Source: Acidimicrobium ferrooxidans
GTDB taxonomy: Bacteria > Actinomycetota > Geothermincolia > Fen-727 > Anoxymicrobiaceae
Length of the DNA: 64,000 nucleotides
Reading direction: 5' to 3'
Assembly: GCA_020723485.1 (NCBI GenBank)
Contig: DYIU01000001.1
Coordinates: 1-64,000, forward strand
The position numbers and the translations under genes are program-made. Of the stretch, positions 144 through 25,042 are shown piece after piece (position 1 is the stretch's first letter; the number at the start of each line of letters is the position of its first letter). The notes under the pieces were generated by a model, which saw only the letters and a program-made list of their open reading frames with translations, had not been told where the DNA came from and searched no databases.

Positions 144-153
144 GGCCTGTAAT

Positions 154-1269: not shown

Positions 1270-1293
1270 TGTTATGCGCTCCGCCTTTCGTCT

Positions 1294-2203: not shown

Positions 2204-2218
2204 CGGTTACTCCTCCTT

Positions 2219-3840: not shown

Positions 3841-3848
3841 GCCCTCTC

Positions 3849-7941: not shown

Positions 7942-7944
7942 CTG

Positions 7945-9225: not shown

Positions 9226-9261
9226 ATAGAGCCTCCCGAAGCTGTGTGGTAGCAGGATTTG

Positions 9262-9591
9262 CTAGCCCTTGGCATTGAGGATGAGCCCGATTATGTCCTT
9301 GGCGAAAACAACAAGCAGGAGACCGGCTATAGAGCCGGCGATTGTGACCTTCGCCTGCTGTTGTGACTGCGGGTTGCCCTGGCTGGTCTTGAGCTTGATG
9401 GCTCCGAAGACGAGCATCAGGACGGCCAAGGTGCCCGCGATCCCCTGCGCTATCTTGATGAGGTTCTCTATGAAATCGCTGAACGGCTTGACAGCCTGCT
9501 CTCCGGCCGCAAGAGCGCTCGGGGCGATAGCTACGGCCAGGATTGAGAAGGCGACCAGCCAGATGACCGTGATGGCGATGAAGCGTTTCAA
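9262..9591 (-). CDS. VirB2/TrbC-like pilin, first gene of the transfer operon
   Basis: A 109-residue protein with a signal peptide ending near ALAAG (residue 30) and two hydrophobic helices separated by a polar loop: IAQGIAGTLAVLMLVFGAIKL and AKVTIAGSIAGLLLVVFAKDIIGLIL. This is the size and topology of VirB2/TrbC pilins. Translation appears to start at a TTG (9591) behind AAAGGAG, which may keep expression modest. It is promoter-proximal in the T4SS operon, with the promoter and operators at 9604-9668. Confidence 0.8.
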   Translation of the reverse strand: MKRFIAITVIWLVAFSILAVAIAPSALAAGEQAVKPFSDFIENLIKIAQGIAGTLAVLMLVFGAIKLKTSQGNPQSQQQAKVTIAGSIAGLLLVVFAKDIIGLILNAKG

Positions 9592-9603
9592 AGCAGCTCC
9601 TTT

Positions 9604-9619
9604 CTGTATATACCGTATA
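9604..9619. promoter_or_regulatory. Operator O2 in the T4SS leader, identical to the regulator-locus site
   Basis: ctgtatataccgtata at 9604-9619 is identical over 16 bp to 24365-24380 beside the XRE regulator gene. Within it ATATA-CCG-TATAT (9608-9620) is an inverted repeat. It lies between the promoter and the pilin ribosome-binding site. Confidence 0.65.
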
Positions 9620-9635
9620 TGCCTTTACATCATAG

Positions 9636-9650
9636 CGGTAATATATACCG
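9636..9650. promoter_or_regulatory. Operator O1 over the T4SS -10 box
   Basis: CGGTA-atata-TACCG is a perfect palindrome covering the -10 hexamer. A repressor bound here would block RNA polymerase. Its half-site TATACCG recurs in the sites at 9604 and 24365. Confidence 0.65.
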
Positions 9651-9668
9651 AATCGGCATAGGTGTCAA
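9640..9668 (-). promoter_or_regulatory. Promoter of the T4SS operon
   Basis: On the minus strand a perfect -35 TTGACA (9663-9668) is followed by a 17-bp spacer and a -10 TATATT (9640-9645). It is the best promoter match I noticed in the window and points at the pilin gene about 50 bp away. A palindrome overlaps the -10, so this strong promoter is probably kept repressed. Confidence 0.8.
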
Positions 9669-9711
9669 GGTGATTGGAGAGGCAATATTGTTAGGAGAAG
9701 ATCGCTAATCT

Positions 9712-10761
9712 TTGATAGAATCTCTGAATCACTTTGCGCTTCTCGAAAGTACAATCGTGGCTTATATCTCACAAAGAATTGTCGAGGATAAAGAAAAGAT
9801 CGCCATACAGCCACCCTCTCTCGAGTTCGGGGAGGCGGTACGATCCAACCCCGAGCTCACGCAGGAGTACGTCGACCTCTCCAGGCGGGCGACCGACTTC
9901 CTCTCCTCGGTCCTGCCCCAGACACCAATCGTCCTAGCTGGTAACGTCACCGACTACCTCTACGGGGACGAGGCTATAAGGTCGAACGCCAAATGGGACC
10001 TGGGGGATGTGCCTGTGGTCACCCCGCCGTTCAAGGGCGTGTTCCTGGAAACGGCCAGCCCCGGGCGCTTCGAGGACCCGGACGTCCGGGGCTGGGGCGC
10101 CTACTTCTCCCGGCTGGACGGTGCTGGAGGTATCGAGTCGAGCGAGATCCCGGCTGACAAGGTCAAGTGGACGATAGAGATGGCCCTGGTGTACGACAAC
10201 AAAGGGGTGCTCAGGACGTACCCAGCGATCTGGTTGTTCTACCTTGACGAGGAGGGGCAGCTCCTGCGCGACCGCCAGGGGGATGTGCTCGCCGAGACCG
10301 CCACGCTCGTGGCGAGCCCGAAACTTGAGGAGACGCTGGAGGGCAGCAAGCGGTGGGAGGACCTCAAGGCGAGCGTCTTCACACTGGCGCTCCCGTTCTT
10401 CTGGTCATTCGGCTTCATGCACTGCAGGAACGTCTCCCTGGACCCTCAGGCTGTTTCCCGCCAGGCGCGGCGGCAGGCGGAGAGGCGCGGTACGCCGGTG
10501 CTAGACTGCCGCGTCCTCAACATCGAGCCGATGAGGCGCGTCCTCGCCGAGGAGGGGAGGCAGTCGGCGGTAGGGCTGCAGAGGGCTCTCCACATCTGCC
10601 GGGGTCACTTCAAGACGTACACCGAGGAAAGGCCGCTTTTCGGCAAAGTCGCCGGCACATTCTGGTGGGAGGGTAGCATCAGGGGCTCGCTGACGAAAGG
10701 TGAAGTCGCCAAAGAGTGCAAGGTAAGTCCACCGTCTTCACCTTCGCAGTTAGCTCCATAA
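9712..10761 (+). CDS. Conserved hypothetical protein of mobile elements
   Basis: A 349-residue protein transcribed divergently from the T4SS operon. Its C-terminal part (about 255-340: DCRVLNIEPMRRVL, ALHICRGHFKTYT, LFGKVAGTFWWEGSIRG) resembles a segment I recall from phage and ICE hypothetical proteins of Actinobacteria. The catalytic role, if any, is unknown to me. No signal peptide or membrane helix is seen. The first start in frame is TTG (9712), whose nearest AGGAG is 14 bases upstream, so a GTG at 9757 is an alternative. Confidence 0.6.
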   Translation: MIESLNHFALLESTIVAYISQRIVEDKEKIAIQPPSLEFGEAVRSNPELTQEYVDLSRRATDFLSSVLPQTPIVLAGNVTDYLYGDEAIRSNAKWDLGDVPVVTPPFKGVFLETASPGRFEDPDVRGWGAYFSRLDGAGGIESSEIPADKVKWTIEMALVYDNKGVLRTYPAIWLFYLDEEGQLLRDRQGDVLAETATLVASPKLEETLEGSKRWEDLKASVFTLALPFFWSFGFMHCRNVSLDPQAVSRQARRQAERRGTPVLDCRVLNIEPMRRVLAEEGRQSAVGLQRALHICRGHFKTYTEERPLFGKVAGTFWWEGSIRGSLTKGEVAKECKVSPPSSPSQLAP

Positions 10762-10934
10762 CAAGTCTTATCGAGCGATAAACCAAAAGCTAATTTGTGG
10801 CAACACTCTTTTGCCGCTACTCTCCTATTTGTATCCACAACAGCGAGATCGCGCCTGTGACAAGAACTCGGTGCCCGAATGTGTACGGACTGCTTGATAT
10901 AATCCATGAAGAGAAATCCCGGGAGCGTGCGGTA

Positions 10935-11576
10935 ATGAGACTTGATTTCAAAAGCAATCTCAGTAATTGGGCGAGAAGTGCATGCGAGGACTGGGGTTAC
11001 CCCAACCCGCCGGAAGAGCTCTACAATTCAATCTGCACGAAGCTCGGCCGGCACGTCCAGGATTTATTAAGTTCGGGGCTCGAAACCAGGATTCTGATTC
11101 CAGAAGGCCGATCCTTCACTCTGAAGGGTCTGCAACCCGGCAAAGGACCCTATAACTGGTTCTCACAAAATCAGCAAAAACTAACGCCTCAACCCAATTG
11201 GGAATACTTTGTCCAGGTCGCAGAATACATTCGACTCTTCCCGATAGCAGCCAAGCGTGGGCTCCAGCTGACCTTCGAGGACAAGCTGATGGACATCTGC
11301 TTGCATGACGGTGACGAATTGGTCGTTTGCTGCGAGGTCAAGGTGGACAAGAACCAAGCGGAAGGCTTGATCGCCGGCATCAAGCAGTATGAGAAAGGTA
11401 TTGATTACCACGCCGTCGATGGCGGAAACGACCCTCTTCGTAAAGCGAAGTATATCGTTGGGAATCGACCTCGCTTCTTCTGCGTGGTGGCGATCGGATA
11501 TCGCCGCGAATTCCGAGTTGAGTATCAGAGTAGCGAGGGGTTTCAGCTTGTTCCCCATGTAATAGGCTGGATCTAG
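10935..11576 (+). CDS. Putative PD-(D/E)XK nuclease-like protein
   Basis: A 213-residue protein without a clear family match. The centre reads FEDKLMDICLHDGDELVVCCEVKVDK, an Asp followed about 15 residues later by Glu-x-Lys at the end of a hydrophobic strand, which is the PD-(D/E)XK nuclease pattern. The ATG at 10935 is preceded by GGGAG; the frame is open upstream but has no better start. It is 11 bp from the next gene, so the pair is probably one operon. Both genes differ from the GC-rich transfer genes in base usage. Nuclease activity is inferred from the motif only. Confidence 0.6.
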   Translation: MRLDFKSNLSNWARSACEDWGYPNPPEELYNSICTKLGRHVQDLLSSGLETRILIPEGRSFTLKGLQPGKGPYNWFSQNQQKLTPQPNWEYFVQVAEYIRLFPIAAKRGLQLTFEDKLMDICLHDGDELVVCCEVKVDKNQAEGLIAGIKQYEKGIDYHAVDGGNDPLRKAKYIVGNRPRFFCVVAIGYRREFRVEYQSSEGFQLVPHVIGWI

Positions 11577-11587
11577 GGGGTACTTCC

Positions 11588-12169
11588 ATGGGAGATGAAA
11601 AGCCACTGGGCAAGCGTGAAGACCATAGAGACGAGTTCTTGGAGCTTCATGATAATCTGAATGATCTGGAGAGACGATTTAACCCCAAGGAGTTGAACCT
11701 TCATTTCGGAGCGCCGAGGGATGCCGAAGTATGGCCGGGCCTGTGGACGGATATTGAAGGATTAGCCAGGGAAGGGCTTGATCGAGTCAGCGGACACCGG
11801 GATTACTTCTTGAGCCAGAAAGTTCCCTCTGCGATGTACGAAGACGACATGTTCTGGTACGACCTCTTTCTCTTCATTGGCGCTGTTTCCATCGCGAATG
11901 CCCATAGTGAGAGCGTTCACGATGAACCCAGTGAGAAAACACTCGCGTCGATACTCGAATGTTTGATAGATGTATCTGAATACACAGCAGTCATTCCCGC
12001 AGACATTTTCAAACGCAACTGGGAAGCTCTTGCCAATTTCTTAAATGCTTTCCCTGCACTTGCGGAGTCCGCAGAAGAACGGGCCGGGAGTCTCGAAGAT
12101 GGACTCCGGAGAGAGATGATACTCGGAGCGGCTAGCTCGGCCAGAAGAATCGATAACGAGACAACCTGA
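11588..12169 (+). CDS. Hypothetical partner of the nuclease-like protein
   Basis: A 193-residue, acidic, largely helical protein with no recognised domain. It follows the nuclease-like gene by 11 bp, shares its strand and probably its transcript, and starts at an ATG behind GGGGG. Two-gene units with a nuclease-like protein and an unknown helical protein are common in defence cargo, but nothing here shows that directly. The 194 bp after it, up to the convergent gene, contain nothing I can name. Confidence 0.5.
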   Translation: MGDEKPLGKREDHRDEFLELHDNLNDLERRFNPKELNLHFGAPRDAEVWPGLWTDIEGLAREGLDRVSGHRDYFLSQKVPSAMYEDDMFWYDLFLFIGAVSIANAHSESVHDEPSEKTLASILECLIDVSEYTAVIPADIFKRNWEALANFLNAFPALAESAEERAGSLEDGLRREMILGAASSARRIDNETT

Positions 12170-12363
12170 CCTGCCGGGCCTGTCGCGACGAATTATTCGG
12201 AAGTCTGCTTTTGACAGACCGAGATATGACGTGATTCCTTTGGCATGTGGCACTTCTGAGCGGTAGTAATGGGCGTCAGCTGTCCCAGAGGTTCTCATTG
12301 TGCTGGCATACTATTGAGCGGTGCGCTTGATAACACCGATTATCGAGCGCATAGCGTCTACAG

Positions 12364-13254
12364 CTAACTTGACTCGTAGCTCTTGATGAACAGAGGCTTC
12401 GCCTTCTCAAGATCGTCATCAGAAACGATTGTCACTTCGAGATCGCCCGTTCCATAATGTCCGATTTTCTGAACATCTCTTGTGAAGCCTTTCTCGAGCT
12501 TTATCGAATCTGGGGCAACCTTCAAGAAAGCTACAATTTTACCTGATTTCGGATGCACCTCTATTGATGCGAAGTTCTTCATACGCTTGAAGACCACGTA
12601 ATAGGTTAGAGTCTTCATCTGAACATCGTCGCCCAAAGCCATGAGAAATGCCTTGAGCGATTCAAAAAGGTCCAGTTGTTCCTTTGATGCTTTCTTTATA
12701 AGTGTCTCAAAATTTGTGTAGTGCTTCTTTCCCCCAGGACCAGGTGATGCAGTTGTCACATTCGCCAACTCAAGAAGCAGAAGACTGGGCCCGTAACTCT
12801 TGTACCTAATTAGTTCAATGTTTCGATCGATCTGCTGAACAGCATATTCGTCGTATTTCGTATAATCACCAGCAATACATAGGAGTCGAGGGCTCGACCA
12901 CTCCACGGTTACCACTTGGCCTTCTCCTTCTTTGCCCATGACTAGCATTTCGAACTCGGCTTTGTGATCCATAAGCCAATCAAGGTAAAAGAGCCCCTGA
13001 TTGATTACGTTTTCGTTTATCGAGCGCTTGTATTCAATAATGACTGGGCATCCATTCTCATCGATGCCAAGCGTATCGATTCTGCCACCATGCTTCTTTC
13101 CTGTTGGATACTCCGACGCCAGAAATCTGATTCCCAGGAATGTCTCAAGATTCTTCTCGATTAGGAGCTGAAGGGATTTCTCAACCTCCATGGATTTTCC
13201 CACAATCTCGATAGATTTGCCCTTGGAGATTTGGAATAGCTTTAGATCCGCCAT
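12364..13254 (-). CDS. NucS-like / DUF5655 nuclease-fold protein
   Basis: A 296-residue protein. Residues about 40-90 carry GGRIDTLGIDENG followed by CPVIIEYKRS, the D...ExK core of endonuclease NucS-like (DUF91) folds. The C-terminal half (LIKKASKEQLDLFESLKAFLMALGDDV... FASIEVHPKSGKIVAFLKV) matches the DUF5655 type, often found next to restriction genes. The ATG at 13254 is used because GGGGGG stands four bases before it; an upstream in-frame start lacks a site. It stands alone between convergent and divergent neighbours. A DNA-degrading or DNA-sensing defence role is likely but unproven. Confidence 0.7.
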   Translation of the reverse strand: MADLKLFQISKGKSIEIVGKSMEVEKSLQLLIEKNLETFLGIRFLASEYPTGKKHGGRIDTLGIDENGCPVIIEYKRSINENVINQGLFYLDWLMDHKAEFEMLVMGKEGEGQVVTVEWSSPRLLCIAGDYTKYDEYAVQQIDRNIELIRYKSYGPSLLLLELANVTTASPGPGGKKHYTNFETLIKKASKEQLDLFESLKAFLMALGDDVQMKTLTYYVVFKRMKNFASIEVHPKSGKIVAFLKVAPDSIKLEKGFTRDVQKIGHYGTGDLEVTIVSDDDLEKAKPLFIKSYESS

Positions 13255-13807
13255 AATACCCCCCGTGTCCACGGACTGATAATAGTATTATATTTATATC
13301 TACACGTGAGTGGCACGGCGAAGGAATTAATGAAGGGGTACCAATCACACAATCCAGAGCGAAATCTGCTTTCTATATATGCTCCAAGATCCGCCGAAGA
13401 GCACGGTAATCCATCTTATCGTGCTCAACGAATTAGAGAATTCCGCTTGTCGCGTGCGGGAATGCGGGAAACTTGCGGAGCGAGTTCCCACTTGCTCCCC
13501 TTCCCTCAAGTACCATAGACTTACTGCGGCAACTGACACGGCAGAGGGGAAGTTAATTTGTCATCAGTGGGTCTTACTGCAACAACCTGGTCTTCTGTAG
13601 CTGCGATAGCTTCCGGATTGCCACGGGTATTCTTTGAGCTCCACATCATGAGAGACCCGCTCTCAGGTTAAAAGATGGGTAATATAGTGGAGCAAGGCGA
13701 TCAATGAGGTTCAAAGAGTGAACTTCCGCAGATCTCAAAATCAGTCGTTTCAACTATGAAGACTCAAACGATTCTGCAATACAAGTCGGGACAATGTGGA
13801 GCACTTA
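13255..13807. other. Intergenic, about 550 bp, no gene seen
   Basis: This AT-rich stretch between two divergent genes has no open frame with a credible start. A TATAAT-type hexamer close to the NucS-like gene on the minus strand could be its -10. Otherwise I see nothing. Confidence 0.5.
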
Positions 13808-15223
13808 ATGGAGACAATGCTTGAGGATTTTAGATATCGAGGGGAATGGTGGAATCCTGCAAATCCAGATGTTCGCTGTCGTGGTGAGATCTCTTTTGAT
13901 AGTTCAGATGACATCATTTTGACCCTCGAAGGAACGCTAGCATCACATTCAGGAGGTCACGTTGAAACAGAAATCCTAGTAGGTAGAATCGACGTTTCTG
14001 CAGATCGGCCTGTTACATTAGTTCATCCTCTACAATGGCCCTCAGGGTATAGTTCGTCAGGTCTTGAAACATCTATATTCCGCTGCAGATATATGATTTT
14101 TGGGAAGCAATTCCAGTCGTTGACTGATATAGGAGCAATAGCCATATGGTTAAAATTCACTCATTTGTTGGAATGGTTGGGTAATAACAGCGTACTTTCA
14201 ACGCGAAGAGAAGATAACGAAACGCGCGCCTCATTTATTCGACCGGAGCCTATCGAAGGAAATATTCCGTGCATTGAGACTGTCTTTAGTATTAGTTACG
14301 AACTGGGAGAGCGACTTCGTAGATTCAAATCTTTAGAATTGATCACATCAGCATCCATAATGCTGAGCCCAGACGACGCTCATGACTTGGAGTGGTATTT
14401 AGACCTGTCTTATAGAATTAGGCACCTTCTAACCCTGTTAATCGGTCGCCCAATATATTTTGAAGAGATCTTGATGTTAAGAGATATCGGCGAATCAGAA
14501 CAGGGTCCAAACAGACCCGAGTTTCTTCATCTTTATCTTGTCCAGCCAGATAGACACATGAAGGAGTCTATTAGTCCAATTGAGATGCCAGTTGCATTTA
14601 GTGAAATTAATAATCGATTACCCGAAATACTTAATTCTTGGTTGGGCAGGGATGAGGGATTATCTCCTTTGGTGGATCTATACATTAGCAATATCTTTAG
14701 CAGAACGTTCCGCGAGTTCCAGTTTCTTAGCTATATTTACTGTCTTGAGATATATCATCGAATAAACTTCAAAGGTCTCTATCTAGATCCAGAAGAGTTT
14801 TCTGAATACTCTGCTAAAATCCAGAAAAGCGTTTCTGATATTCTTCCTAAGGAGTCAAAAGACCTGGAAGATAGTCTTAACCAACGTCTGAGATACGGAA
14901 ATGAATATGCCCTGCGAAAACGAATCAGAGAGATATTCAACGAACTTCCAGAAGATCTCTTCACGTATCTAGGAATTAGTATTGGCACCTTCATTAGACA
15001 AATAGTTGATACAAGGAATTATCTTACGCATTACTCAACTGATCTCGAGGCTGCTGCCTTGACAAGCCACCGCCTTAGTTCAGCCACCGAGAAGCTTAGG
15101 GGTCTTATCCTTGCTCTACTTTTAAAGGATTTGGGATTAGGACCAGAAGAAGTTACGACTGCGGTTTCAAGAGACTTGATAATCAAAGCAATTGTTGGAG
15201 AGGAATCGCACGGCGACATCTAA
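13808..15223 (+). CDS. apeA: ApeA-type HEPN antiphage protein
   Basis: A 471-residue protein with the architecture of ApeA, a single-gene antiphage HEPN ribonuclease. The N-terminal domain opens 'DFRYRGEWWNPANPDVRCRGEISF', the FxxxGxWW...G.(L/I)xF start of that domain. The helical C-terminal region carries the HEPN catalytic motif RNYLTH (Arg-x4-His) near residue 402. In known systems such an RNase is held inactive until infection, then cleaves RNA. The ATG at 13808 has GTGGAG six bases upstream and is preferred to a GTG at 13796. Clearly AT-richer than the transfer genes, so it was probably acquired separately. Confidence 0.8.
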   Translation: METMLEDFRYRGEWWNPANPDVRCRGEISFDSSDDIILTLEGTLASHSGGHVETEILVGRIDVSADRPVTLVHPLQWPSGYSSSGLETSIFRCRYMIFGKQFQSLTDIGAIAIWLKFTHLLEWLGNNSVLSTRREDNETRASFIRPEPIEGNIPCIETVFSISYELGERLRRFKSLELITSASIMLSPDDAHDLEWYLDLSYRIRHLLTLLIGRPIYFEEILMLRDIGESEQGPNRPEFLHLYLVQPDRHMKESISPIEMPVAFSEINNRLPEILNSWLGRDEGLSPLVDLYISNIFSRTFREFQFLSYIYCLEIYHRINFKGLYLDPEEFSEYSAKIQKSVSDILPKESKDLEDSLNQRLRYGNEYALRKRIREIFNELPEDLFTYLGISIGTFIRQIVDTRNYLTHYSTDLEAAALTSHRLSSATEKLRGLILALLLKDLGLGPEEVTTAVSRDLIIKAIVGEESHGDI

Positions 15224-15513
15224 TCCGTATGGATTCTAGCTGCATATCGCAAACACTTCTTTGAACCTACAAGCTAATCCGGAGTTTGGCGAAGAACCAA
15301 ATGTGGCTGATAATGTCTCTTATCGTACGCATTCGGTGCGACTACGTCACTTATTCCACAATAGAAAACACCAGTTGCGGCTATCGGACAACCAAGCAGG
15401 CGGGCGTTGTTTCTTTAGACCCTCTTCGCTTTTGGCTATTCTTCTGGGCGCAGCCGCAATTGCTCTGAATCGCATTGCTCTAACCTCTTGTGATGCCCAG
15501 TTAGAATGAATTT
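15224..15513. other. Intergenic between convergent genes, about 290 bp
   Basis: No gene, RNA or convincing rho-independent terminator is visible here, although two convergent transcription units end on either side. Confidence 0.5.
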
Positions 15514-18500
15514 CTAATCGATGCCGTAGGCAGAGCCCACGTGTCCGCCTACACAACCGCCGCAGTTGAAGTACATCGGCCGCTCGATCATCACCGGAAC
15601 GTCTGAGGCGATCTTGGCAGAGACATTCTTTCCCGGACCGACCCCTGTGTCTTCGTCGCAAACGTTGACCGTCAAACGCGACTGGGCTTTGACCGAGTAT
15701 TTGCGCACTACCAGCGTTCCGTCTCCGAGCATGTAGGTCACGGTCACGGTGGCGTCGGCCTTGTTCGCATTCTGGATGCAGTAATAGGTCTCGAAGTCTG
15801 AAAGCGTGCAGCCTTCGGCGATGTAGAACGTTTTAGAAGAGGAGGTCTCGCCCATGGCGACAGAGGCACCGTCCCACTTCATCTTGTAGTCGAAGTACAT
15901 CGGGCGTTCGGCGACGATTGGCTGATCGGACTCGACGTCGGCCGATACGTCCTGGCCGTCTCCAACGTCCTCGAGGACTTTCACGGTCCCGCGGGAACGC
16001 GGCGGCACCGTCTTCTTGGCCGTCGTGACTTTGCCCTCACCGTTCATGTAAGTCATCGTGACATTGGCTTCAACGTCACCCGGGTTCTGGATGGTGATCC
16101 ACTCCTCGAACCCATTCTTGGTGGTGCCTTCGGCGAAGTGCCATTTTCGCATTGGAGACGAGGCGCCGACCACGTTGTGGCCGTCGACCGCGTAACCGCG
16201 GTAGTTCTGGTACTGAGGGCGCTCCGCGACCAGGGGTACGTCGGAGGTGACTTTGGCGGAGACGTCTTTGTCGAGCCCCACATCGTTGTTCACGCTAACC
16301 GTGATCCTGCTATGGGACGCGACTTGGTACGCCTTTTCGATGCTGGCGCCGTCGCCCAGCATATATGTGATGTTGACGTTGGCGGGGGTTTCCCCGGGGT
16401 TCTGCAGGGTCAGCCACTCGTCGAATGGGCCACCGTTGCCCGCCTGCCTGGTGGTCCCTTCGGCGAAGTAGTATTGCTTCTGGAGGGTGTTGATGCCCCT
16501 GGCGATATGGCCTCCCTTCCAGTTGCGGTCCGGATCGGCGGCCTTGTAGTGGAAGTACATGGGCCGCTCCACCACGATCGCCTGGTTGTCGCAGTGCACC
16601 TTGGCGCTCACCCCGGAGTGGCCCTCGGGCACGTAGTCCTTGACCCTGAGGGTGGCCCTGGTGCGCGGGGCGACCATGTGGACGTCGGGATGCACCACGC
16701 TGCCGTCCTCGAGCATGAAGTCAAGCTGCACGCGGGCGGGCTGGTCCCCGGGGTTGATGACGCAAAGGTACTCTGTGAACTCAGGAAGTGTGTTGCCTTC
16801 AGCCAGGTACCAGTCCTTTGAAAAGGAGTCGAGGTTGACGCGTCTTGTGGCGGTCCCGATGTTGCCTGCGTTGTCTTTCGCCGAGAGCTCAATCTCGTAG
16901 ACCCCAGCCTTCTCTTTCGAGACGTCCCAGATGACATATATTGGGTCGTCGAACCCGCCGGTCTTGGCGGCGCCCATCCGCACGTCGTCCTTGAGGAGCG
17001 TCTCGGAGGCGAGACCGCTTCCCGAGTCGCTCCCGACACCTGAGACCAGCACCGCCTGGCTCGGTTCGAAGCCGGTCTGGATCGCGTCCTTCTCCGGGGT
17101 CAAGATGGCGGCGCTGGGGGCGGTCTTATCCACCTTGAGACCTGAGGCCTTGGTCGCCTCGGTGTTTCCGGCTTTGTCGACCGAGTAATATTCGACCGTC
17201 CACTGGCCTTCCGTTATTACGAAGGGGCCGCCGTAGTTGTTCCATTCGCCGCAGGAGCCGTCCAGGTTGTTCTTGATCCGGCACTTCGTATGCTCCACGC
17301 CGTAAGAATCCACAGGGTTCAGCTTTACAGTCACGTCTGAGGTGAACCAACCGTCCTCACCGGGCGTTCCCTCAGACACGAGGTTAGTGTCCGGGGGGCT
17401 GGTATCGATGACGATCTCGCCCGAGCGCGTCGAATCTGAGCTGTTGCCGGCCGTGTCGGTAATCGTCCCCTTGAAGTAATACCTGCCGTTGGCAAGCCCA
17501 GGTACGGAAACGCTCGTGGCCCAGGAGAGCCCAGTCGCGCCGGTCGCGTTTATAGTCTTCAGGGTGGTCCAGCTGTTGGGGGAGCTCTTCGGAGCGTACT
17601 TGAACGCAACAGATGTAACCCCGTTGTTGAACTTGCTCTTGATATCGGTCCCGGTCACGTTCCAGTCCAGGTCCTTGACGTTGGTGAGCGACAGCGGGAA
17701 CGATGCCTTGAAATAGGTGGGAGACGTGGAGGGCGGCTGCCCGTTGACCTTGACGGGGTCGCTCGCCGGGGCCGTCACGTCCGTCCGCTTGATATAGATC
17801 TTCCCGTCGCTCAGCCTCGTTCCAACGAGATAAGCCCTGCTTCCGGCCCTCCCGTCCTGGTCGAGGTTGAAGGTGTTGGAGTTCTCCTGGGAGGCGCCGC
17901 CCAGGTCGAGTAGAGTGCTATCGGTCGCGGCGTCCTTCAGGTATCTCCTTCCGTCTCCGGAATTTTGGCCCCTGTAGACGCGGAGCTCGCGCCCCCGGCA
18001 TGTCTTCGGGAAGGGGGCGTAATCTACGCTGCGCATGGAGGAAAGGCCCTGGGTCTGGTTAGTGTCCAGGACCCGCAATTTCACCTCGTGCTTCCCGGAG
18101 GAAGTGTCATCCCACACCACCCGCATCTGGGCGCCGGAGATGCAGGAGACGTCGATGTCCCTCAACGCGCCGTGGGCCTTGTACCCGTCGAGGGAAACGG
18201 CCTTCTGCCCGGAAGGCAGAGTGTACCAGTCGGACCATCCCTGGCCTTCCAGGTACCGGGCGGCCGCCACGAGCTCCCCTGGCGAGGACTCCCAGTTCCG
18301 CTCGATGAAAGAGACATAGTACTCGTTCGCGCCGGCGCCGGATACCGCCGGGCATATGACGGCGCGTCCCGCGGCCTGCGTGGGGATCTGTAACCCCTGA
18401 TCCGAGCCGTCGGAGGCCATGACCCCCACGTTGTGGAGGAAACCGTTCTTTACCTGGCTTCCGCCGTTTGACTCCTGGTAGGCGAGCAGGAACGGCTCTG

Positions 18501-19062
18501 TTACCGAGCAACGGTCGAGATCGAAGTTGTCTACGCTGCGGCTCGCCGGGGTGATCCCGTACCAGGTCCCGCGGGTCTGATGAGTGCCCGGATCTAGGTT
18601 GTTGAATGTCGCCCCGCCGTCGTCCGAGCGTTTCACAACTACGTAATCCCTGTCCGCGGGGAACCCGGCCCATGCGTCGTGGGGCTCGTTACGGGTCTTG
18701 TAGGCGATATAGGCGATGTTTCCGTTCATGGCCACCTGGGGGTCGAGGCACTCGCTCGAGCTCCTGTCCATTCGTCCAGTCGAGAGCTTGGAGGGGTACG
18801 CGGGATAAGCCCATGTGAGCCCACCGTTAGTGGAACGCTTGCACATGACGTGGCCGGCTCTGTCCTTCCAGACCAAGAGGACCGTGTCGCCCCAAGTGGC
18901 TATGTCTAACGACTGATAGGCGGTGCTACCGACGTAGATATCCGAGGTCCAACCCGCAGGATATGCGAGAGCGGGGCCGCTGAATATCCCTCCCGCCAAC
19001 GCCACCACAAAAGAGGCCATTAGGATTGCCGCAAGAATAGACCGCTTCTCCCCCATCACCAT
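15514..19062 (-). CDS. Giant secreted protein: sialidase-like propeller, Ig-like domains, four FAEGT repeats
   Basis: An 1182-residue secreted protein. A signal peptide ends near ALAYPAG. The N-terminal half has Asp-box/BNR-like motifs (KRSTNGGLTWAY, KRSDDGGATF) of a sialidase-type propeller. Two Ig-like or HYR-type segments follow (IDTSPPDTNL, VDKTAPSAAI). The last ~400 residues are four tandem ~95-residue repeats, each starting (W/Y/F)xxAEG(T/N/C) and ending VxxERPxYFxY...GGH. It ends without an LPxTG signal. The ATG at 19062 has GGGAGG eight bases upstream; an ATG two codons later with GGGAG is equally plausible. It is the last gene of a five-gene operon and a paralogue of the preceding gene. 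Probably an adhesin or mating-surface protein. Confidence 0.85.
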   Translation of the reverse strand: MVMGEKRSILAAILMASFVVALAGGIFSGPALAYPAGWTSDIYVGSTAYQSLDIATWGDTVLLVWKDRAGHVMCKRSTNGGLTWAYPAYPSKLSTGRMDRSSSECLDPQVAMNGNIAYIAYKTRNEPHDAWAGFPADRDYVVVKRSDDGGATFNNLDPGTHQTRGTWYGITPASRSVDNFDLDRCSVTEPFLLAYQESNGGSQVKNGFLHNVGVMASDGSDQGLQIPTQAAGRAVICPAVSGAGANEYYVSFIERNWESSPGELVAAARYLEGQGWSDWYTLPSGQKAVSLDGYKAHGALRDIDVSCISGAQMRVVWDDTSSGKHEVKLRVLDTNQTQGLSSMRSVDYAPFPKTCRGRELRVYRGQNSGDGRRYLKDAATDSTLLDLGGASQENSNTFNLDQDGRAGSRAYLVGTRLSDGKIYIKRTDVTAPASDPVKVNGQPPSTSPTYFKASFPLSLTNVKDLDWNVTGTDIKSKFNNGVTSVAFKYAPKSSPNSWTTLKTINATGATGLSWATSVSVPGLANGRYYFKGTITDTAGNSSDSTRSGEIVIDTSPPDTNLVSEGTPGEDGWFTSDVTVKLNPVDSYGVEHTKCRIKNNLDGSCGEWNNYGGPFVITEGQWTVEYYSVDKAGNTEATKASGLKVDKTAPSAAILTPEKDAIQTGFEPSQAVLVSGVGSDSGSGLASETLLKDDVRMGAAKTGGFDDPIYVIWDVSKEKAGVYEIELSAKDNAGNIGTATRRVNLDSFSKDWYLAEGNTLPEFTEYLCVINPGDQPARVQLDFMLEDGSVVHPDVHMVAPRTRATLRVKDYVPEGHSGVSAKVHCDNQAIVVERPMYFHYKAADPDRNWKGGHIARGINTLQKQYYFAEGTTRQAGNGGPFDEWLTLQNPGETPANVNITYMLGDGASIEKAYQVASHSRITVSVNNDVGLDKDVSAKVTSDVPLVAERPQYQNYRGYAVDGHNVVGASSPMRKWHFAEGTTKNGFEEWITIQNPGDVEANVTMTYMNGEGKVTTAKKTVPPRSRGTVKVLEDVGDGQDVSADVESDQPIVAERPMYFDYKMKWDGASVAMGETSSSKTFYIAEGCTLSDFETYYCIQNANKADATVTVTYMLGDGTLVVRKYSVKAQSRLTVNVCDEDTGVGPGKNVSAKIASDVPVMIERPMYFNCGGCVGGHVGSAYGID

Positions 19063-19087
19063 CTCCCTTCCCTCCCTGAAGCGGGGA

Positions 19088-22000
19088 TCAGTAAGATTTG
19101 TAGCCGCGGGACGTATGCCCGCCGCTCCATTTCCCCCCGTAGTTGAAGTACATCGGTCTCTCGACCGCTATGTCGTTGTCGCCGACTATCTGGACGGAGA
19201 CGTCTCGCTCAGCCCCGACGGCCTTGTCTATGTCTATGGTCGTCCTGTGCGCCCGCCCCACGGGGTAGGCGATGGGGTCCGAGCGGGTGCCGTCCGGATA
19301 GATAAGCGTGACGTAGGCCACCGCGCCCTCAGAAGGCGAGAACACCGTCACCCACTCTTCGAACCCGGCGCGGGTCGTCCCCTCGGCCAGGTAGAAGGTC
19401 CTCCCGAGTTCGGTCGCCCCGAGCGTGTCGTGGCCCCCCGTCCACCTGTCCTGGTAGTTGAAGTACATGGGCCGCTCGGCCACCACCGGCTGGTCCGATG
19501 TTATCTTCGTCGATACGTCGTGGCCGACGCCCACCAGATCCGCGACGTTATAGGTGGCTCTGGTGCGCTTGGGTATCGAGACGGAGACCTGCTTCTCGGA
19601 GAAGTCCTCGAGGTAGAACGCCATCTTGAGGGACGCTGGAGTGTCGTTGGGATTCTGGACGGTGATGTACTCGTCGAACCCCGGGCGTGTCGCCCCCTCG
19701 GCGAAGTACCAGGTCCTGCTCGTCGCGGAGGCCCCCGCAACCAGATGGCCCCCGTCGATCGCTTCTCTATAGTTGAAGTACATGGGGCGCTCCGCGGCGA
19801 TGGGCTCGTTCGACTCCACGAAAGCGGAGACGTCCTGGTCCGGGCCGACGTCGCTATTGACGTCCACCGTATACCGGCTGTGCGGCCCTATTTCACACGA
19901 CTTCACGATGTTCTGCCCCGTGGCGAGCATATAGGTCACGCTCACCTTGGCGGCCCTGTCGCCGGGGTTCTGCAGGCAGATCCATTCCTCGAACGGGCCA
20001 CCGTTGCCGGCCTGCCTCGTGGTCCCCTCGGCGAAGAAGTACTGCTTCTCGAGCTTGTTTGCCCCTAAGGTGGTGTGCCCGCCGGTCCATGTGCCCTGGT
20101 AGTTGAAGTACATGGGGCGCTCGGCGATGACCGGCTGGCCGTCCGTGTGAAGATGGACGGAGACGTCGTGCTCGCCTTCTACCATGTCGCGGACGTTGAA
20201 AGTGGCCCTGCTCTTCTTGGCGATGGTGGCGGTCCTGGTGATCACCTCACCCGTCTCAAGCATCAGGTCGAACGTAAGCGATGCGTCCTTATCACCGGCG
20301 TCCAAAACGCAGATGTACTCATCGAAGCCCTCAAGCGTGTTTCCCTCGGCGAAATACCAGTTGACCGCCGGGCTCCTGACGAGCTGGAACGTCCTCGGGC
20401 TGGAACTGCTGCTGTGTCCCGCGGCGTCCGTCCCCTTTATCTCAATACTGTGCGGTCCCAGAGCCTTGCTCTCGGTGTTCCACGGGGAGGCAATCGTCGT
20501 GCTCTCGGGGTTATCCACCTGATAGATCCGCTTGCCGTCTATCCAGATGCTTGCCGTTGCGACCTCCCCCGCCCCGTCGTCGACGCTGCCCTTGACGATC
20601 ACCACCGTATTGTCCACTGGCGGGTAGGCCTCCGTCTTCGGGAAGACCACCGCGCAGTCGGGGGCTTCGGTGTCGACCCATACCGCGAGGGAGGCGTTGG
20701 AATCACTCGAGTTGCCCGCCTTGTCGGTGGCCCTGTAGAAGATCGTGTTGCGACCCTCGGGGGCGTTGAAAGGAGAACTGTATAGCACCCAGGAGGCTCC
20801 CGCTCCCCCGGGGGGCTGTACCTTGTACTGGACCTGGTCGAGGTTCGCGTCGCTCGCCGCAATGGTCACTGTGGTCGGAGAGGTCCTCCAGGAGCTGGGG
20901 TCATGCGGAGGGTCGGTCGAAATGTTACAGGTAGGCGCTGTCTTATCTAGCACAATAGTGCTTGAAGCCACTTCCTTAGTGTTACCCGCAGTATCAGTGA
21001 GTATCCCCTTGATGAAATAGGTGCCGTCGCCAATGCTGTTAGTGTTTACCACGGCAGACCATGGAGCATTGTTTAGAGTTGAACCCTTGTCTGTCGGAAG
21101 GTCGCCCCAAGGACCCCCGGGATTTTCAGATACCTTAACCTGTATTGACGTAACGCCGTTGGTGAAGGAATCGCCGTTGGGATCTGTCCCGGTAGTGTTC
21201 CAGTCGTCAACGACGTTGCTAAAAGAAATCCCGAAGTTGGCTTTGGCGTAGACGGACCCTCCCACCTGGTTTCCCTCGATTGCGACGCCGCTTGAGGAAG
21301 GCGCGACGGCATCCGTCCTCTTGACCCGGACATTGCCGTCCGCGCACCTGGCTGCGACGAGGGCCTCACCACCAGGCGCGCGGTCCGCGGCCCAGCTCGA
21401 AGGAGCGGAGCCCTTCATAATGTCCGCATTGGAACCAAACATTGCCCACTCTAGGAAGGCGCCTGTGCTGTCCATGCAAACGATCGAGTTGTCAGCTGAA
21501 TATTGAATAGCTCGGGCTGAAGGTTGCTGCGTGCCAGCGTCGTAGAGCTCCGTGCGCCCTCCCCACGTCGAACCGTTCCAAACCTTGCGACACACATAGT
21601 GGGAGCTGTTGTAGAAGTCGGTCCAGACAACGTTGATAAGACCGGCTCCCTGGCAGGAGACGTCTGGGTCGAGCAGCGTATGTGTGCCCTCGTTCGCGAT
21701 GACGTCGTTCGAGGTTGCAGAGCCGTTGTATCTCATGCAGTAGATATTCCAATGGTGAAAGACGACGTCCTGACCCATGTAGGCGACGAACACGTTGGCG
21801 CCGTCGCTAGCGATTCGCGGCTTGTCCATATAGTCCGTGGAGGCGTCCCACACCTGCCGCTTGCCCGCTGACAAGTCGCCGCCCCCACCCAGCGGCGACC
21901 AGTAGATGTAGATATGATTGGCGATGTTCATCTTCCAGCACAGTGATACGTTGTCGGAGCCGTGCGTGATTTCCACAGCCTCGACAGTATCGGTGGAAGA

Positions 22001-22402
22001 CCCCACATAAGCGAAGTAGCCCGATTCCCATGTCTGACCGGAGTTCGTCGAACGCCTGACGAGGACCTCGCTCTGCAGGGCCCCGGGCCTGTCCTGGCCT
22101 ACGTACGTGGCGTACACAGTGTTGCCTGCTCCAGTCGTCACCCGGGGGCGGGACCCCGTTCCCGCGTCCAGCCTTACAGCTGAACTCCATGTCAGCCCGG
22201 AATCCGTCGAGCGGCGGTAGTAGACGCCGTTGTTCTCATAGACCAGGTGAACGTTTGCGCCTTTGACGGCGATATCGACCGACCCGGTTCCGGCCGTGAC
22301 CGTCTTGTCGGAGGTCCAGCCCGCGGGGTAGGCGAAAGTGGCGCCCGCCAGAGCTAGCATCAATACTGCTGCCAAGGCTGTCACGGCGGAAAGCTTCCTC
22401 AT
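19088..22402 (-). CDS. Giant secreted protein, paralogue of its downstream neighbour
   Basis: About 1104 residues with the same plan: a signal peptide (LAAVLMLALAGATFAYPAG), Asp-box propeller repeats (RRSTDSGLTWSS, RRSTNSGQTWES), Ig-like modules (VLDKTAPTCNIS, VDTEAPDCAV) and four C-terminal FAEGT repeats (WYFAEGNTLEGFDEY, YFFAEGTTRQAGNGGPFEEW, WYFAEGATRPGFDEY, FYLAEGTTRAGFEEW). The start ATG overlaps the stop of the PKD-protein gene as TGATG, so the two are coupled. Tandem duplication with moderate divergence suggests both copies are kept under selection. Surface attachment or recipient recognition is inferred from the domains. Confidence 0.85.
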   Translation of the reverse strand: MRKLSAVTALAAVLMLALAGATFAYPAGWTSDKTVTAGTGSVDIAVKGANVHLVYENNGVYYRRSTDSGLTWSSAVRLDAGTGSRPRVTTGAGNTVYATYVGQDRPGALQSEVLVRRSTNSGQTWESGYFAYVGSSTDTVEAVEITHGSDNVSLCWKMNIANHIYIYWSPLGGGGDLSAGKRQVWDASTDYMDKPRIASDGANVFVAYMGQDVVFHHWNIYCMRYNGSATSNDVIANEGTHTLLDPDVSCQGAGLINVVWTDFYNSSHYVCRKVWNGSTWGGRTELYDAGTQQPSARAIQYSADNSIVCMDSTGAFLEWAMFGSNADIMKGSAPSSWAADRAPGGEALVAARCADGNVRVKRTDAVAPSSSGVAIEGNQVGGSVYAKANFGISFSNVVDDWNTTGTDPNGDSFTNGVTSIQVKVSENPGGPWGDLPTDKGSTLNNAPWSAVVNTNSIGDGTYFIKGILTDTAGNTKEVASSTIVLDKTAPTCNISTDPPHDPSSWRTSPTTVTIAASDANLDQVQYKVQPPGGAGASWVLYSSPFNAPEGRNTIFYRATDKAGNSSDSNASLAVWVDTEAPDCAVVFPKTEAYPPVDNTVVIVKGSVDDGAGEVATASIWIDGKRIYQVDNPESTTIASPWNTESKALGPHSIEIKGTDAAGHSSSSSPRTFQLVRSPAVNWYFAEGNTLEGFDEYICVLDAGDKDASLTFDLMLETGEVITRTATIAKKSRATFNVRDMVEGEHDVSVHLHTDGQPVIAERPMYFNYQGTWTGGHTTLGANKLEKQYFFAEGTTRQAGNGGPFEEWICLQNPGDRAAKVSVTYMLATGQNIVKSCEIGPHSRYTVDVNSDVGPDQDVSAFVESNEPIAAERPMYFNYREAIDGGHLVAGASATSRTWYFAEGATRPGFDEYITVQNPNDTPASLKMAFYLEDFSEKQVSVSIPKRTRATYNVADLVGVGHDVSTKITSDQPVVAERPMYFNYQDRWTGGHDTLGATELGRTFYLAEGTTRAGFEEWVTVFSPSEGAVAYVTLIYPDGTRSDPIAYPVGRAHRTTIDIDKAVGAERDVSVQIVGDNDIAVERPMYFNYGGKWSGGHTSRGYKSY

Positions 22403-23628
22403 CACTGTCTCACCGTGACCATGATCGTGGACGACGCCGAGAGTCCCCCGGAGTCCGACACCGTCACCGAAACGGGGAATGTGCCCGTGTTCTGGAAAGC
22501 GGTGCTCTTGCTCGAGCTTCCCCAGCTGTAGGAGAGGGAATCCCCGTCGGGGTCCGAGGCGTTAGCGTGGTAAGTCACCGTCTGGCCCACCGTGACCAGG
22601 GTGGGCCCGCTTATGCTGACGCTCGGGGCGTGGTTCACATTTGCGGGCGGCTGCGTCGGCGCTGGCGCGGGCGTAATTGTGTTCGAGCCCGCAGCTTCAC
22701 TAACAGGCGCGACGGTTGCAGACTCAAGGGTCGCTTCGGGCGACGTGTCCTTGGATGTCTCACTGGGCGTCTCGGCAGGCGCCGAGCTTTTCGTCTTGGT
22801 CTTCGTCTTCGAAGCGCTCGCCGCTTTGCGGACCTCCGCTTTCTTCTCTTGTTTATGAGATCCCTGAGCGAAGACGCCGACACCCAAGGCCAGCAGTATC
22901 ACGACAAAGATAGAGGCCGACGCGACAAGGTAGTTCCTGGAACCGGAGGTAGCCGCCGCCATGTCATCGTTCCCTGACGCGTTACCCGAGGCGCCTTTCT
23001 TCTCTCCGGCGGACTGCTTCAATCCTGTGAAGAAAGCGGCCAGCGCCGACCGAAGTGATCTGCGCCTGTTGGGCTCTTCCGCGGCCGCAGATCTCTGGTA
23101 TTGATCTGCAGCAGAGTCCCTGAGGAACTCCTCGGTCGCGGGGTCCTCTGTCCCTAACTCCTGCTCAAGGGCTACAGCCGAGCCGTTCGCCTCTTCCCAC
23201 ACTGTGTCCGGGGATTCCACGTGCATTTGAATGACATCAGCGATCTGCCCCTGATCTTGCTCACCTCGCACCTCGCGCAGTTTCCTGCAGCTGGGAATCA
23301 TGGAAAACAGCTCCACGCGGGTGGGGTTCTCGGAAAGCGAGTAGTCGGCGTAGTACTTGTCGAGGGAGTCCTGGCTGACGGCCGGATCGCCGGTGACGAG
23401 CACGACGAGCGCCCCCGGGTGCCTCTGCCGGATGAGCTTGCCGAGGGTGTCTGAGTCCTTTGTCTCCTTGTGCAGGATATAGATGTTGTATTCCATTCCA
23501 AGGAGGCTGTTGGCCTCTCTCCAATCGGTGGACTTGTAAAGGGTGGCGTTCTTGCGGACGTGCTTCTCTATCCTGGAAAGGCTCGTGCTGCTGTGTAGAA
23601 ACACGCTGAACTTGTTGTCTTGCTTCAT
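22402..23628 (-). CDS. Receiver-like / transmembrane / PKD-domain protein
   Basis: A 408-residue membrane protein of unusual layout. The cytoplasmic N-terminus (about 1-115) resembles a degenerate receiver or CheY-like fold (NIYILHKETKDSDTLGKLIRQRHPGALVVLVTGDP). A charged linker follows, then one membrane helix near 225-245 (NYLVASASIFVVILLALGVGVFA). Outside the cell come a Lys/Ala/Ser/Thr-rich stalk, a proline-rich spacer and one PKD domain (about 325-408: VNHAPSVSISGPTLVTVGQ). The ATG at 23628 has GGAGAG seven bases upstream; a TTG six codons earlier is weaker. Coupled to the giant surface protein genes, it may link surface structures to the cell interior. Confidence 0.7.
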   Translation of the reverse strand: MKQDNKFSVFLHSSTSLSRIEKHVRKNATLYKSTDWREANSLLGMEYNIYILHKETKDSDTLGKLIRQRHPGALVVLVTGDPAVSQDSLDKYYADYSLSENPTRVELFSMIPSCRKLREVRGEQDQGQIADVIQMHVESPDTVWEEANGSAVALEQELGTEDPATEEFLRDSAADQYQRSAAAEEPNRRRSLRSALAAFFTGLKQSAGEKKGASGNASGNDDMAAATSGSRNYLVASASIFVVILLALGVGVFAQGSHKQEKKAEVRKAASASKTKTKTKSSAPAETPSETSKDTSPEATLESATVAPVSEAAGSNTITPAPAPTQPPANVNHAPSVSISGPTLVTVGQTVTYHANASDPDGDSLSYSWGSSSKSTAFQNTGTFPVSVTVSDSGGLSASSTIMVTVRQ

Positions 23629-23706
23629 CGTGCTGCTCTCCGGCAAGGGTCACTCAATCCATAATTAGCGTCGGTAAATCAGGAGATGGATCACATTGGA
23701 CCAAGA

Positions 23707-24036
23707 TCAGAACTCCAGGCTTCTGCCGATGACCCCAGCCCGGATCTTTGCCTTTGACCGCCTATTCCCCGCACCGTCAGACCACTCATCATAGCGAAGC
23801 GAGCCCGATACGACAACACGGTCGCCTTTCTTGAGCTCGACCAGGCAGTTCTCGGCGAGCTTGCCGTACGCCTCCACGTCGAAGAAGTCGCTCCGCTTCA
23901 CCTTCTCGCCGGAGCCTGCTTCGGTGTACTCCACGTGAGTGGCGACCCGCATGTTGGCCGCGGTCCCGTTGCTCAAAGTCCCAGCCGCCGGGTCGTCGGT
24001 GAGGTTTCCGACCATTGTGACGTTGTTGATGTTCAA
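23707..24036 (-). CDS. ssb: Single-stranded DNA-binding protein (first copy)
   Basis: A 109-residue OB-fold SSB (NINNVTMVGNLTDDPAA..., DFFDVEAYGKLAENCLVELKKGDRVVVSGSLRYDEW). It lacks the long acidic C-terminal tail of chromosomal SSBs, as is common for mobile-element copies. It would coat single strands made during transfer or replication. Translation starts at a TTG (24036) with an AAAAGGAGGAG box. It lies 15 bp after the Phd-like gene and 78 bp before the receiver/PKD gene. A second, different SSB is at 30251-30595. Confidence 0.92.
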   Translation of the reverse strand: MNINNVTMVGNLTDDPAAGTLSNGTAANMRVATHVEYTEAGSGEKVKRSDFFDVEAYGKLAENCLVELKKGDRVVVSGSLRYDEWSDGAGNRRSKAKIRAGVIGRSLEF

Positions 24037-24051
24037 AGCTTCTCCTCCTTT

Positions 24052-24318
24052 TCATGCATCGATTGCCCGATGCTCTTGCAATCCGTTCTCTTCATCAGAG
24101 ATGTCTACCGGCTCGCCGATATCCGTGCCGGGAGCTTCTTCGGGGTGGAGCTTCCGCTTTAGCGCCTCTGGGACGGGGACGAGCATCGCCACGGGTCGGT
24201 TATATCGATTGAGGATAAAGGCCTCACCGCCCTGCATGACCCTGTCGAAGACCTCGGCCCTGCGTTTGTCGAAGTCTTTGACGGTCAGGCTCCTTACGAT
24301 CAGGTCCTGCTCCTGCAT
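24052..24318 (-). CDS. Phd/YefM-like DNA-binding antitoxin homologue
   Basis: An 88-residue protein. Its N-terminal half (VKDFDKRRAEVFDRVMQGGEAFILNRYNRPVAMLVPV) fits the Phd/YefM antitoxin fold: helix, then strand with 'xxItrxxxPvAvlvp'. The acidic tail is where such antitoxins hold a toxin, but no toxin gene is adjacent. It starts the ssb/surface-protein operon and faces the XRE regulator across a shared 90-bp promoter region. The ATG at 24318 (GGGGAGGAG six bases upstream) is preferred over a GTG eight codons earlier. It may work simply as a repressor of its own operon. Confidence 0.7.
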   Translation of the reverse strand: MQEQDLIVRSLTVKDFDKRRAEVFDRVMQGGEAFILNRYNRPVAMLVPVPEALKRKLHPEEAPGTDIGEPVDISDEENGLQEHRAIDA

Positions 24319-24364
24319 CTTGCGCTCCTCCCCAATATGCACTATTATATGTATGGCATATATC

Positions 24365-24380
24365 CTGTATATACCGTATA
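24365..24380. promoter_or_regulatory. Operator between the Phd-like and XRE genes, identical to the T4SS operator
   Basis: ctgtatataccgtata is an exact copy of 9604-9619. It sits in the divergent promoter region. On the minus strand a TATAAT lies about 16 bp beyond it, so the site would cover that promoter's -35 region. Flanking ctatta/taatag arms make a wider inverted repeat. Confidence 0.65.
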
Positions 24381-24407
24381 GTAATAGTTGGGGAAAGGGG
24401 TGTCAAG

Positions 24408-24719
24408 ATGGGACCGGCAGAAATGGCAAGAAAGCCGAAACCCGCTCCTTCCAATTTCAGCAGGGACGAGCTCACCGAGCTCGAGGTGACGATCGCAAAG
24501 AACCTGAAGATGTACCGCGAGCTCTTCGGGCTGACCCAGCAAGAGGTGGCCCGCAGGATCGGCTCGAGTGTCCAGACAGTCGCCCATTGGGAGCAGGGGC
24601 TAAAGGTCCCACGACCTGAGTGGTTTGGTGCCCTGGCTAAGCTTTACGGAGTGGATGTGGGCGCTTTCTGGAACGAACCACCCAAGACCAAAGGTCGGCG
24701 CACCCGCCGGCCCAAGTAA
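24408..24719 (+). CDS. XRE-family helix-turn-helix regulator
   Basis: A 103-residue Cro/CI-type regulator. The HTH spans about 38-85 (NLKMYRELFGLTQQEVARRIGSSVQTVAHWEQGLKVP), with the canonical LTQQEVA...VSxxTVxxWE pattern, and both termini are basic. The ATG at 24408 has AAAGGGG seven bases upstream. It is alone on the plus strand, divergent from the Phd-like/ssb operon. The 16-bp site in its promoter recurs at the T4SS promoter, so it is the best candidate for the switch controlling conjugation. The Phd-like protein is the alternative binder. Confidence 0.85.
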   Translation: MGPAEMARKPKPAPSNFSRDELTELEVTIAKNLKMYRELFGLTQQEVARRIGSSVQTVAHWEQGLKVPRPEWFGALAKLYGVDVGAFWNEPPKTKGRRTRRPK

Positions 24720-24766
24720 GAAGGCCTCTCTCGTTCGCAGACCGCATGGTTCGGCAGAAGTTTCCG

Positions 24767-25003
24767 CTACCTCTTGTCTTTCGGAGGATTAGGATCGTTT
24801 CCGTAGCTATCCTTCTCCCTGATCCGACCGTCCTTCCCGTGAATTGACAGCTCGGTCTTGTCTCGGCGAGCGGTCTCACGCGCGGCTTCAATTGCTTCTT
24901 TCTGGGTGTCAAAATGCCCTGAAGCTCTTGAAGCACCTTCCCGCTTGCTGCTCCAACCTCCGTCGGGGTTCGGAACAACATGAATTCCGGGATTCTTTGC
25001 CAT
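24767..25003 (-). CDS. DUF2188 domain protein
   Basis: A 78-residue protein matching the DUF2188 pattern: HVVPNPDGGWSSKREGASRASGHFDTQKEAIEAAR...ELSIHGKDGRIREKDSYGNDPNPP. Such proteins are small, common in bacteria and of unknown biochemical function; the conserved end 'I..KDSYG.DP' is intact. The ATG at 25003 is favoured by family length, with a GTG three codons upstream also possible. It is last on the minus strand in the lower-GC operon that begins near 27.9 kb and may be part of it. Confidence 0.8.
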   Translation of the reverse strand: MAKNPGIHVVPNPDGGWSSKREGASRASGHFDTQKEAIEAARETARRDKTELSIHGKDGRIREKDSYGNDPNPPKDKR

Positions 25004-25042
25004 TGTTCTCACATCCTTCCGGGCGTTCCGTGATGCAAGGTG

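Follow-up and report, generated by a model that had tools for sequence, protein, structure and literature searches.

Why does one 16-bp word stand in two gene gaps 15 kb apart, one ahead of conjugation genes and the other beside a small regulator gene? The question is raised by positions 1 to 64,000 of contig DYIU01000001.1 of Acidimicrobium ferrooxidans (assembly GCA_020723485.1), the whole of which was analysed and is called the window here; its first part is an integrative and conjugative element (ICE) of 52.5 kb (~1-52554). An earlier reading, made from the letters alone (the sequence-only reading), had proposed that one repressor controls conjugation and its own locus through this word. 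We consider it probable, although by no means certain, that the two 16-mers and a dyad at 9636-9650 are operators of one ICE-encoded repressor, most likely the XRE-family protein encoded at 24408-24719. The predicted promoter of the type IV secretion system (T4SS) and the locus of the regulator and a single-stranded DNA-binding protein (SSB) likely belong to one regulon. The SSB gene in the controlled locus, and the existence of a presumed chromosomal counterpart, are new with respect to the earlier reading. The features on which the argument rests are as follows.

9604-9619, no strand: putative operator copy A1 (CTGTATATACCGTATA; 12-bp dyad at 9604-9615), in the T4SS leader, downstream of the start that the -10 predicts and ahead of the ribosome site
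9636-9650, no strand: second operator-like dyad, CGGTA-N5-TACCG (CGGTA-ATATA-TACCG), with the same half-site, covering the T4SS promoter -10
9640-9668, minus: predicted T4SS promoter TTGACA-17-TATATT, -35 at 9668-9663 and -10 at 9645-9640, 11/12 consensus
23707-24036, minus: SSB of the XRE-linked type
24052-24342, minus: solitary Phd/YefM-like protein, likely start 24318 (PF02604, E 2.8e-4, 21 bits against a cut-off of 29.8)
24353-24382, plus: candidate XRE promoter ATGGCA-18-TATAGT, weak (9/12), its -10 within A2
24365-24380, no strand: putative operator copy A2 (CTGTATATACCGTATA), immediately after the Phd-SSB promoter's -10; it overlaps the candidate XRE -10
24378-24406, minus: predicted promoter of the Phd-like, SSB and surface protein genes, TTGACA-17-TACTAT, its -35 adjoining the start codon of XRE, an arrangement also seen in the chromosomal loci
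24408-24719, plus: XRE-family regulator of 103 aa (HTH_31/HTH_3), the proposed repressor

Two promoter gaps of the ICE share an exact 16-bp word

A search of the window found CTGTATATACCGTATA exactly at 9604-9619 and 24365-24380, in both cases on the plus strand and in a short AT-rich promoter gap of the ICE. The layout described earlier was recovered as well: a near-consensus promoter stands beside the first copy, on the minus strand, its -10 lies within a second palindrome of the same half-site, and the second copy falls between the XRE gene and the Phd-like gene. When up to three mismatches were allowed, one extra match appeared, at 24361-24376 on the minus strand and overlapping A2 (0.15 expected; 0 of 100 shuffles reached 3). 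The T4SS, Phd-SSB and XRE promoters are consensus-based predictions, and promoter-like sites overall were at chance level (3 versus 4.5 in 1-13000; 5 versus 2.8, standard deviation 2.1, in 15000-25500). A second minus-strand promoter candidate, TATACA-16-TATAAT (24371-24344), likewise overlaps A2.

Two AT-rich promoter regions might share a TATA-rich word by chance, without a common regulator. The word is indeed AT-rich, several exact 15-16-mer repeats exist elsewhere in the ICE, mostly as repeated coding stretches, and some repeat of this length somewhere in 52 kb is not surprising. The palindromes named earlier were of the TATACCG type; this half-site is mildly enriched in the window (8 versus 3.07 expected, with 8 reached in 2 of 100 shuffles), and paired sites occur only at both promoters. 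Paired half-sites of the form C[GT]GTA-N(0-8)-TAC[CA]G were found at three places in the ICE, which are both 16-mers (spacer 2) and 9636-9650 (spacer 5). Since simple arithmetic predicts about two such places in 52.5 kb over nine spacers, their number is unremarkable, and the position of all three in both promoters is what counts. However, when the gaps 9592-9711 and 24319-24407 were compared for common words against dinucleotide shuffles (n = 20000), a common 16-mer occurred in none of them, and the longest common word, of 15 bases, in two. The word also occupies the same promoter-relative place as an operator in 12 homologous loci, described below, and chance is therefore judged very improbable.

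Outside the ICE, the word leaves little trace. The looser palindrome CNGTATATACNG occurs at four places in the 3.36-Mb genome, two being A1 and A2. The other two, C5:47823 and C11:415833, were rejected as regulon members, as they lie within a uvrB-like frame and between convergent gene ends, respectively (gene names assigned by eye). In this genome the 14-mer TACGGTATATACAG has exact copies at both ICE sites only, with one further place at one mismatch. With one mismatch or none it was found at 25 places in 39 genomes, versus 19 for a control pattern, and the 17 loci that were viewed by eye were mostly coding. As a separate observation, TACAGTATATACAG stands in three class relatives (G014, G026 and G029; loci L089, L095 and L093) between a gene for an ArsR-like regulator and a small gene divergent from it, by eye; this is perhaps a separate system with a conserved GTATATAC operator.

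Presumed chromosomal XRE-SSB loci carry an operator-like site at the same place

The XRE protein of the ICE is weakly homologous to a protein of its own genome (28% identity, E 7.1e-5), and homologues were found in related genomes too, these being small XRE proteins. A profile of ten rows (nine chromosomal sequences and the ICE copy itself) was searched against 396 genomes of the phylum, with at most 13 candidates scored per genome. One copy at 133-156 bits was obtained from each of 12 genomes of the family and order, out of 13 searched, own genome included (G000-G005 and G007-G012), and the profile search gave no copy in G006 (99% complete). The ICE protein, itself one of the profile rows, scores 117 bits, and the next-best match in the 396 genomes 58.6 bits. 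Their recurrence across the order, next to neighbours that look similar by eye, is the reason why the 12 copies are presumed to be chromosomal.

In 11 of these 12 loci the XRE gene is divergent from an SSB gene; G010 is without SSB in the 3.3 kb viewed. All 12 have TTGACA-17-(-10) and then a 17-bp operator-like site of the type RGACAA-N5-TTGTCY, where the ICE carries CGGTATATACAG. The pattern RGA[CT]A-N7-TG[TA]CY is exact in nine loci, whereas G002, G009 and G011 each deviate from it by one base. This motif was derived from eight loci; of the four added afterwards, two (G004 and G007) match it exactly and two (G002 and G009) have the single deviating base. Measured from the -35, the operator starts one base nearer in G010 and four bases nearer in G001 than in the other loci. 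Columns G2, A3, C4, A5, T13, T15 and C16 of the 17-mers are identical in 12/12, a conservation that is partly circular because the 17-mers were picked by the motif. Even so, the conserved 17-mers are read as the footprint of an operator ahead of SSB, a position at which the ICE carries a putative operator of its own.

The SSB of the ICE points to the same relationship, as it gives 73.8-89 bits against the 11 XRE-linked SSBs and 43.6-55.9 bits against 11 further SSBs in these 13 genomes. The ICE locus has an XRE protein of the family, a divergent SSB of the linked type (with the Phd-like gene between) and TTGACA-17-(-10) followed by an operator-like dyad. It shares with the chromosomal divergon the divergent layout, the order TTGACA-17-(-10)-operator and the SSB type, whereas the chromosomal divergon has the RGACAA-N5-TTGTCY operator, no Phd-like gene and no second target above control counts. 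Position and homology favour the XRE protein as the binder.

Exact RGACANNNNNNNTGTCYA gave 1-5 matches per genome in the 13 genomes, both strands, versus 0-7 for the control, with the XRE-adjacent place included in nine; no wider chromosomal regulon is evident from these counts. A regulator of the host chromosome that silences the ICE through its sites is extremely improbable. Foreign elements are often silenced by their hosts, but the palindrome outside the ICE is confined to the one reading frame and the one convergent gene-end gap given above, and the operator found with the chromosomal XRE homologue is another one, exact RGACANNNNNNNTGTCYA having zero matches in the ICE.

The ICE encodes a second SSB at 30251-30598, which is also of the XRE-linked type (80.3 bits); in the own-genome homologue search, no XRE of this family turned up next to it. 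A small gene at ~30595-30828 precedes it and is similar, by eye, to the gene that follows the chromosomal SSB. A direct repeat in nearly identical copies (28532-28831 and 29807-30106, 1275 apart; 285 identical bases beginning at 28637 and 29912) adjoins this second SSB.

The XRE protein and the Phd-like protein as candidate binders

Several observations weigh against a common operator bound by the XRE protein. The ICE protein is only 24-30% identical to the chromosomal rows of the family. The ICE is without the 17-bp odd operator, the 24.3-kb site having 0/8 symmetric pairs in the chromosomal register. Its dyad is a 12-bp even palindrome (5/6 pairs), and the dyad at the 9.6-kb -10 is 15 bp and odd, so the ICE operators have no one common geometry. 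The predicted fold of the Phd-like protein (single sequence, pLDDT 75, the predicted local distance difference test) matches the DNA-binding domains of VapB46, Phd and YefM; the best Foldseek E value was 2.2e-3, with none at or below 0.001, and some of the matched structures were solved on operator DNA. Finally, a second ICE with this XRE was absent from the genome contigs, viral contigs, plasmids and 396 phylum genomes searched, of which the contig searches detect close relatives only. The recognition helix is GSSVQTVAHWEQG in the ICE and GVHYNTLKNWELG in the chromosomal proteins, and the operator differs too; as each changed once, this amounts to consistency and is no test of XRE binding. 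A single-sequence structure model of the XRE protein had a pLDDT of 62, too low to rely on.

The Phd-like protein could be the binder instead, as an orphan antitoxin-type autorepressor that acts on the even palindrome CNGTATATACNG at its own and the T4SS promoter, with the targets of XRE elsewhere or limited to the odd 9636 dyad. Phd/YefM-type DNA-binding proteins often use short palindromes, and the short even dyad, which lies at the gene's own promoter, differs from the odd 17-bp operator of the XRE family; the predicted fold agrees with such a role. The gene has SSB (15 nt downstream) and the divergent XRE as its neighbours, and a toxin gene is absent from the adjacent positions. On the other hand, the PF02604 match is below the cut-off, and 12 chromosomal XRE loci have an operator at about the same place in genomes that, own genome aside, are without a Phd-like match. 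The XRE-SSB distance of 167-253 nt in the 11 chromosomal loci with SSB is too short for a Phd-like gene, G001-G012 gave no Phd-like match, and among 146 genomes other than the own one there was a single match, in G054. We regard this explanation as unlikely.

Both proteins might also share the sites, the odd 9636 dyad being used by one and the 16-mer by the other, which would give joint control of SSB and T4SS. Two dyad geometries are present in the T4SS promoter and two DNA-binding proteins flank the 24.3-kb site, but the odd 9636-type dyad is absent at the 24.3-kb locus, so that XRE would not control its own promoter in that way. Such a division is, in our judgement, quite improbable. The XRE protein is kept as the preferred binder: the regulon of the sequence-only reading is partly supported by the position of the sites and the XRE-SSB loci of 12 genomes, which point to XRE, with binding and repression themselves presumed.

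Proposed mechanism

From the sites, the consensus promoters, the XRE and SSB homology and the conserved layout we infer a scheme of XRE binding, repression, co-transcription and timing. Binding at 24365 would place the XRE protein just downstream of the -10 of the Phd-SSB-surface protein promoter and on its own promoter, which would amount to autorepression. Bound at 9604 and 9636, it would obstruct the T4SS promoter, both at the -10 and early in the leader. In the resident ICE, XRE would hold both units low. When XRE is lost or still to be made, for example just after the ICE has entered a new cell, SSB, Phd-like protein, surface proteins and T4SS would all go up at the same time, to be silenced again afterwards. 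The ICE locus is likely a mobile version of the XRE-SSB divergon of the order, with a changed recognition helix and operator and a second promoter added.

More tentatively, the host chromosome and the ICE may hold homologous XRE-SSB switches with separate operator codes and without cross-talk, the ICE copy having gained a target 15 kb away. If this is true, one switch ties SSB supply, large surface proteins and the conjugation pore together, and the surface proteins would be made along with the transfer apparatus. The switch is small and defined, consisting of one 103-aa protein and three sites, and the natural pair of homologous repressors with different operators would be useful for mapping XRE recognition helices to DNA.

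The genes behind the Phd-SSB promoter

The Phd-like and SSB genes are followed on the same strand by three larger genes.

22402-23646, minus: protein with a C-terminal PKD domain, third in the series
19088-22405, minus: large DUF5719/Ig-like protein with a signal-peptide-like start (by eye)
15514-19062, minus: large DUF5719/Ig-like protein with a signal-peptide-like start (by eye)

The gaps in the series from the Phd-like gene through the SSB and PKD genes to the two DUF5719 genes are 15, 60, -4 and 25 nt, which suggests that it is co-transcribed as far as the second DUF5719 gene. The "operon of surface proteins" proposed earlier is thus plausible from the serial arrangement, with co-transcription presumed. 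Minus-strand terminator-like sites were found in the series at 23052 and 19321, both inside reading frames; these sites say little because the terminator scan overall was at chance (8 versus 8.5). Outside the ICE, relatives of its DUF5719-type repeat proteins that share repeats with them or are similar lie at 59259-63932 of the window and at L002:7286-9988 (the latter by eye).

Comparison with known conjugation repressors

An element-encoded repressor with several operators is a known principle. In plasmid R388 (IncW), ArdK acts as repressor of Pssb, which is its own promoter, and of four more, and KorA represses the T4SS promoters and its own (PMC3937220, PMC9723621). The ssb and transfer genes of R388 rise right after conjugation, and negative feedback leads to an overshoot (PMC3937220). 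As in the ICE, where the likeness consists of site sharing only, small helix-turn-helix repressors act there on several promoters of one mobile element through a common site. ArdK binds direct and inverted repeats (PMC9723621), so a mixed geometry would be compatible with a single binder in the ICE. In the same sources, unlike the ICE XRE, the R388 repressors belong to the KorA family and the SSB and T4SS units are under two repressors, whereas in the ICE a single XRE-type protein would bring SSB, surface proteins and T4SS under one control. The sites described for ArdK are direct repeats adjoining the -35, and those of the ICE are dyads at or behind the -10.

An element-encoded repressor that keeps conjugation off by default is also described for ICEBs1 (ImmR; PMC6540685) and pLS20 (Rco; PMC4207663). 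Rco acts on overlapping divergent promoters, with two operators on one divergent region via a DNA loop (PMC4207663), whereas the second promoter of the ICE is 15 kb off. No ImmA-like Pfam match was obtained among the 40 window proteins scanned. In the open-licence literature searched, neither an XRE-SSB divergon of this kind nor an ICE so controlled was found.

Search for related elements

The XRE search of the genome contigs returned 36 loci, by eye mostly helix-turn-helix stretches of the ParB/Noc type. Viral contigs gave zero matches to VirB4, XRE or the Phd-like protein; the pattern TTGACA-N(20-50)-CGGTATATACAG matched 12 viral stretches, as a pattern match alone. Among plasmids, XRE matched 11 records, all below 60% identity and none covering 80%, and the Phd-like protein none.

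The only close relative found was a fragment in G005 with a VirB4 71% identical to that of the ICE, which starts inside VirB4. G005 (77% complete) yielded no TrbL, no pilin and no second XRE, and 12 family and order genomes yielded no TrbL, the TrbL search being without a positive control. The pilin search of 18 genomes gave two distant matches (G184 and G343), and the motif is absent from the 500 bases upstream of each.

Limits and further gene content of the ICE

Judged from its gene content, 1-52554 of the window is an ICE, having an integrase, attachment (att) repeats with a tRNA end by eye, a relaxase, a coupling protein and a T4SS. The contig begins within the left att repeat, so that the left junction is the contig end. 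The T4SS cluster spans 9591-3849, from pilin to M23 peptidase.

3-52, plus: att repeat, left end, resembling by eye the 3' half of a tRNA-Lys gene (the tRNA listing is without a tRNA here)
154-1269, minus: tyrosine integrase
3849-5270, minus: M23 peptidase of the T4SS gene cluster
5263-7941, minus: VirB4/TraG-type ATPase
7945-9225, minus: TrbL-like protein, weak, below the curated cut-off
9262-9591, minus: T4SS pilin-like protein (PF18895, E 2.5e-11), first gene downstream of the T4SS promoter
46688-47590: Replic_Relax protein
47590-50718: FtsK/TrwB-like coupling protein
52505-52554, plus: att repeat, right end (94% over 50 nt)

Between both supposedly regulated units, 12364-15223 encodes an ApeA/HEPN protein (PDC-S58 and Cas13-ApeA models) and a PDC-S18 candidate defence protein. 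A defence-like block at 32977-43618 contains an Eco57I/DrmMI-like methylase, an HKD and Snf2 helicase and a REase-ARP nuclease. A single CGGTATAT half-site lies at 40873-40879, 43 bases ahead of the methylase start at 40830.

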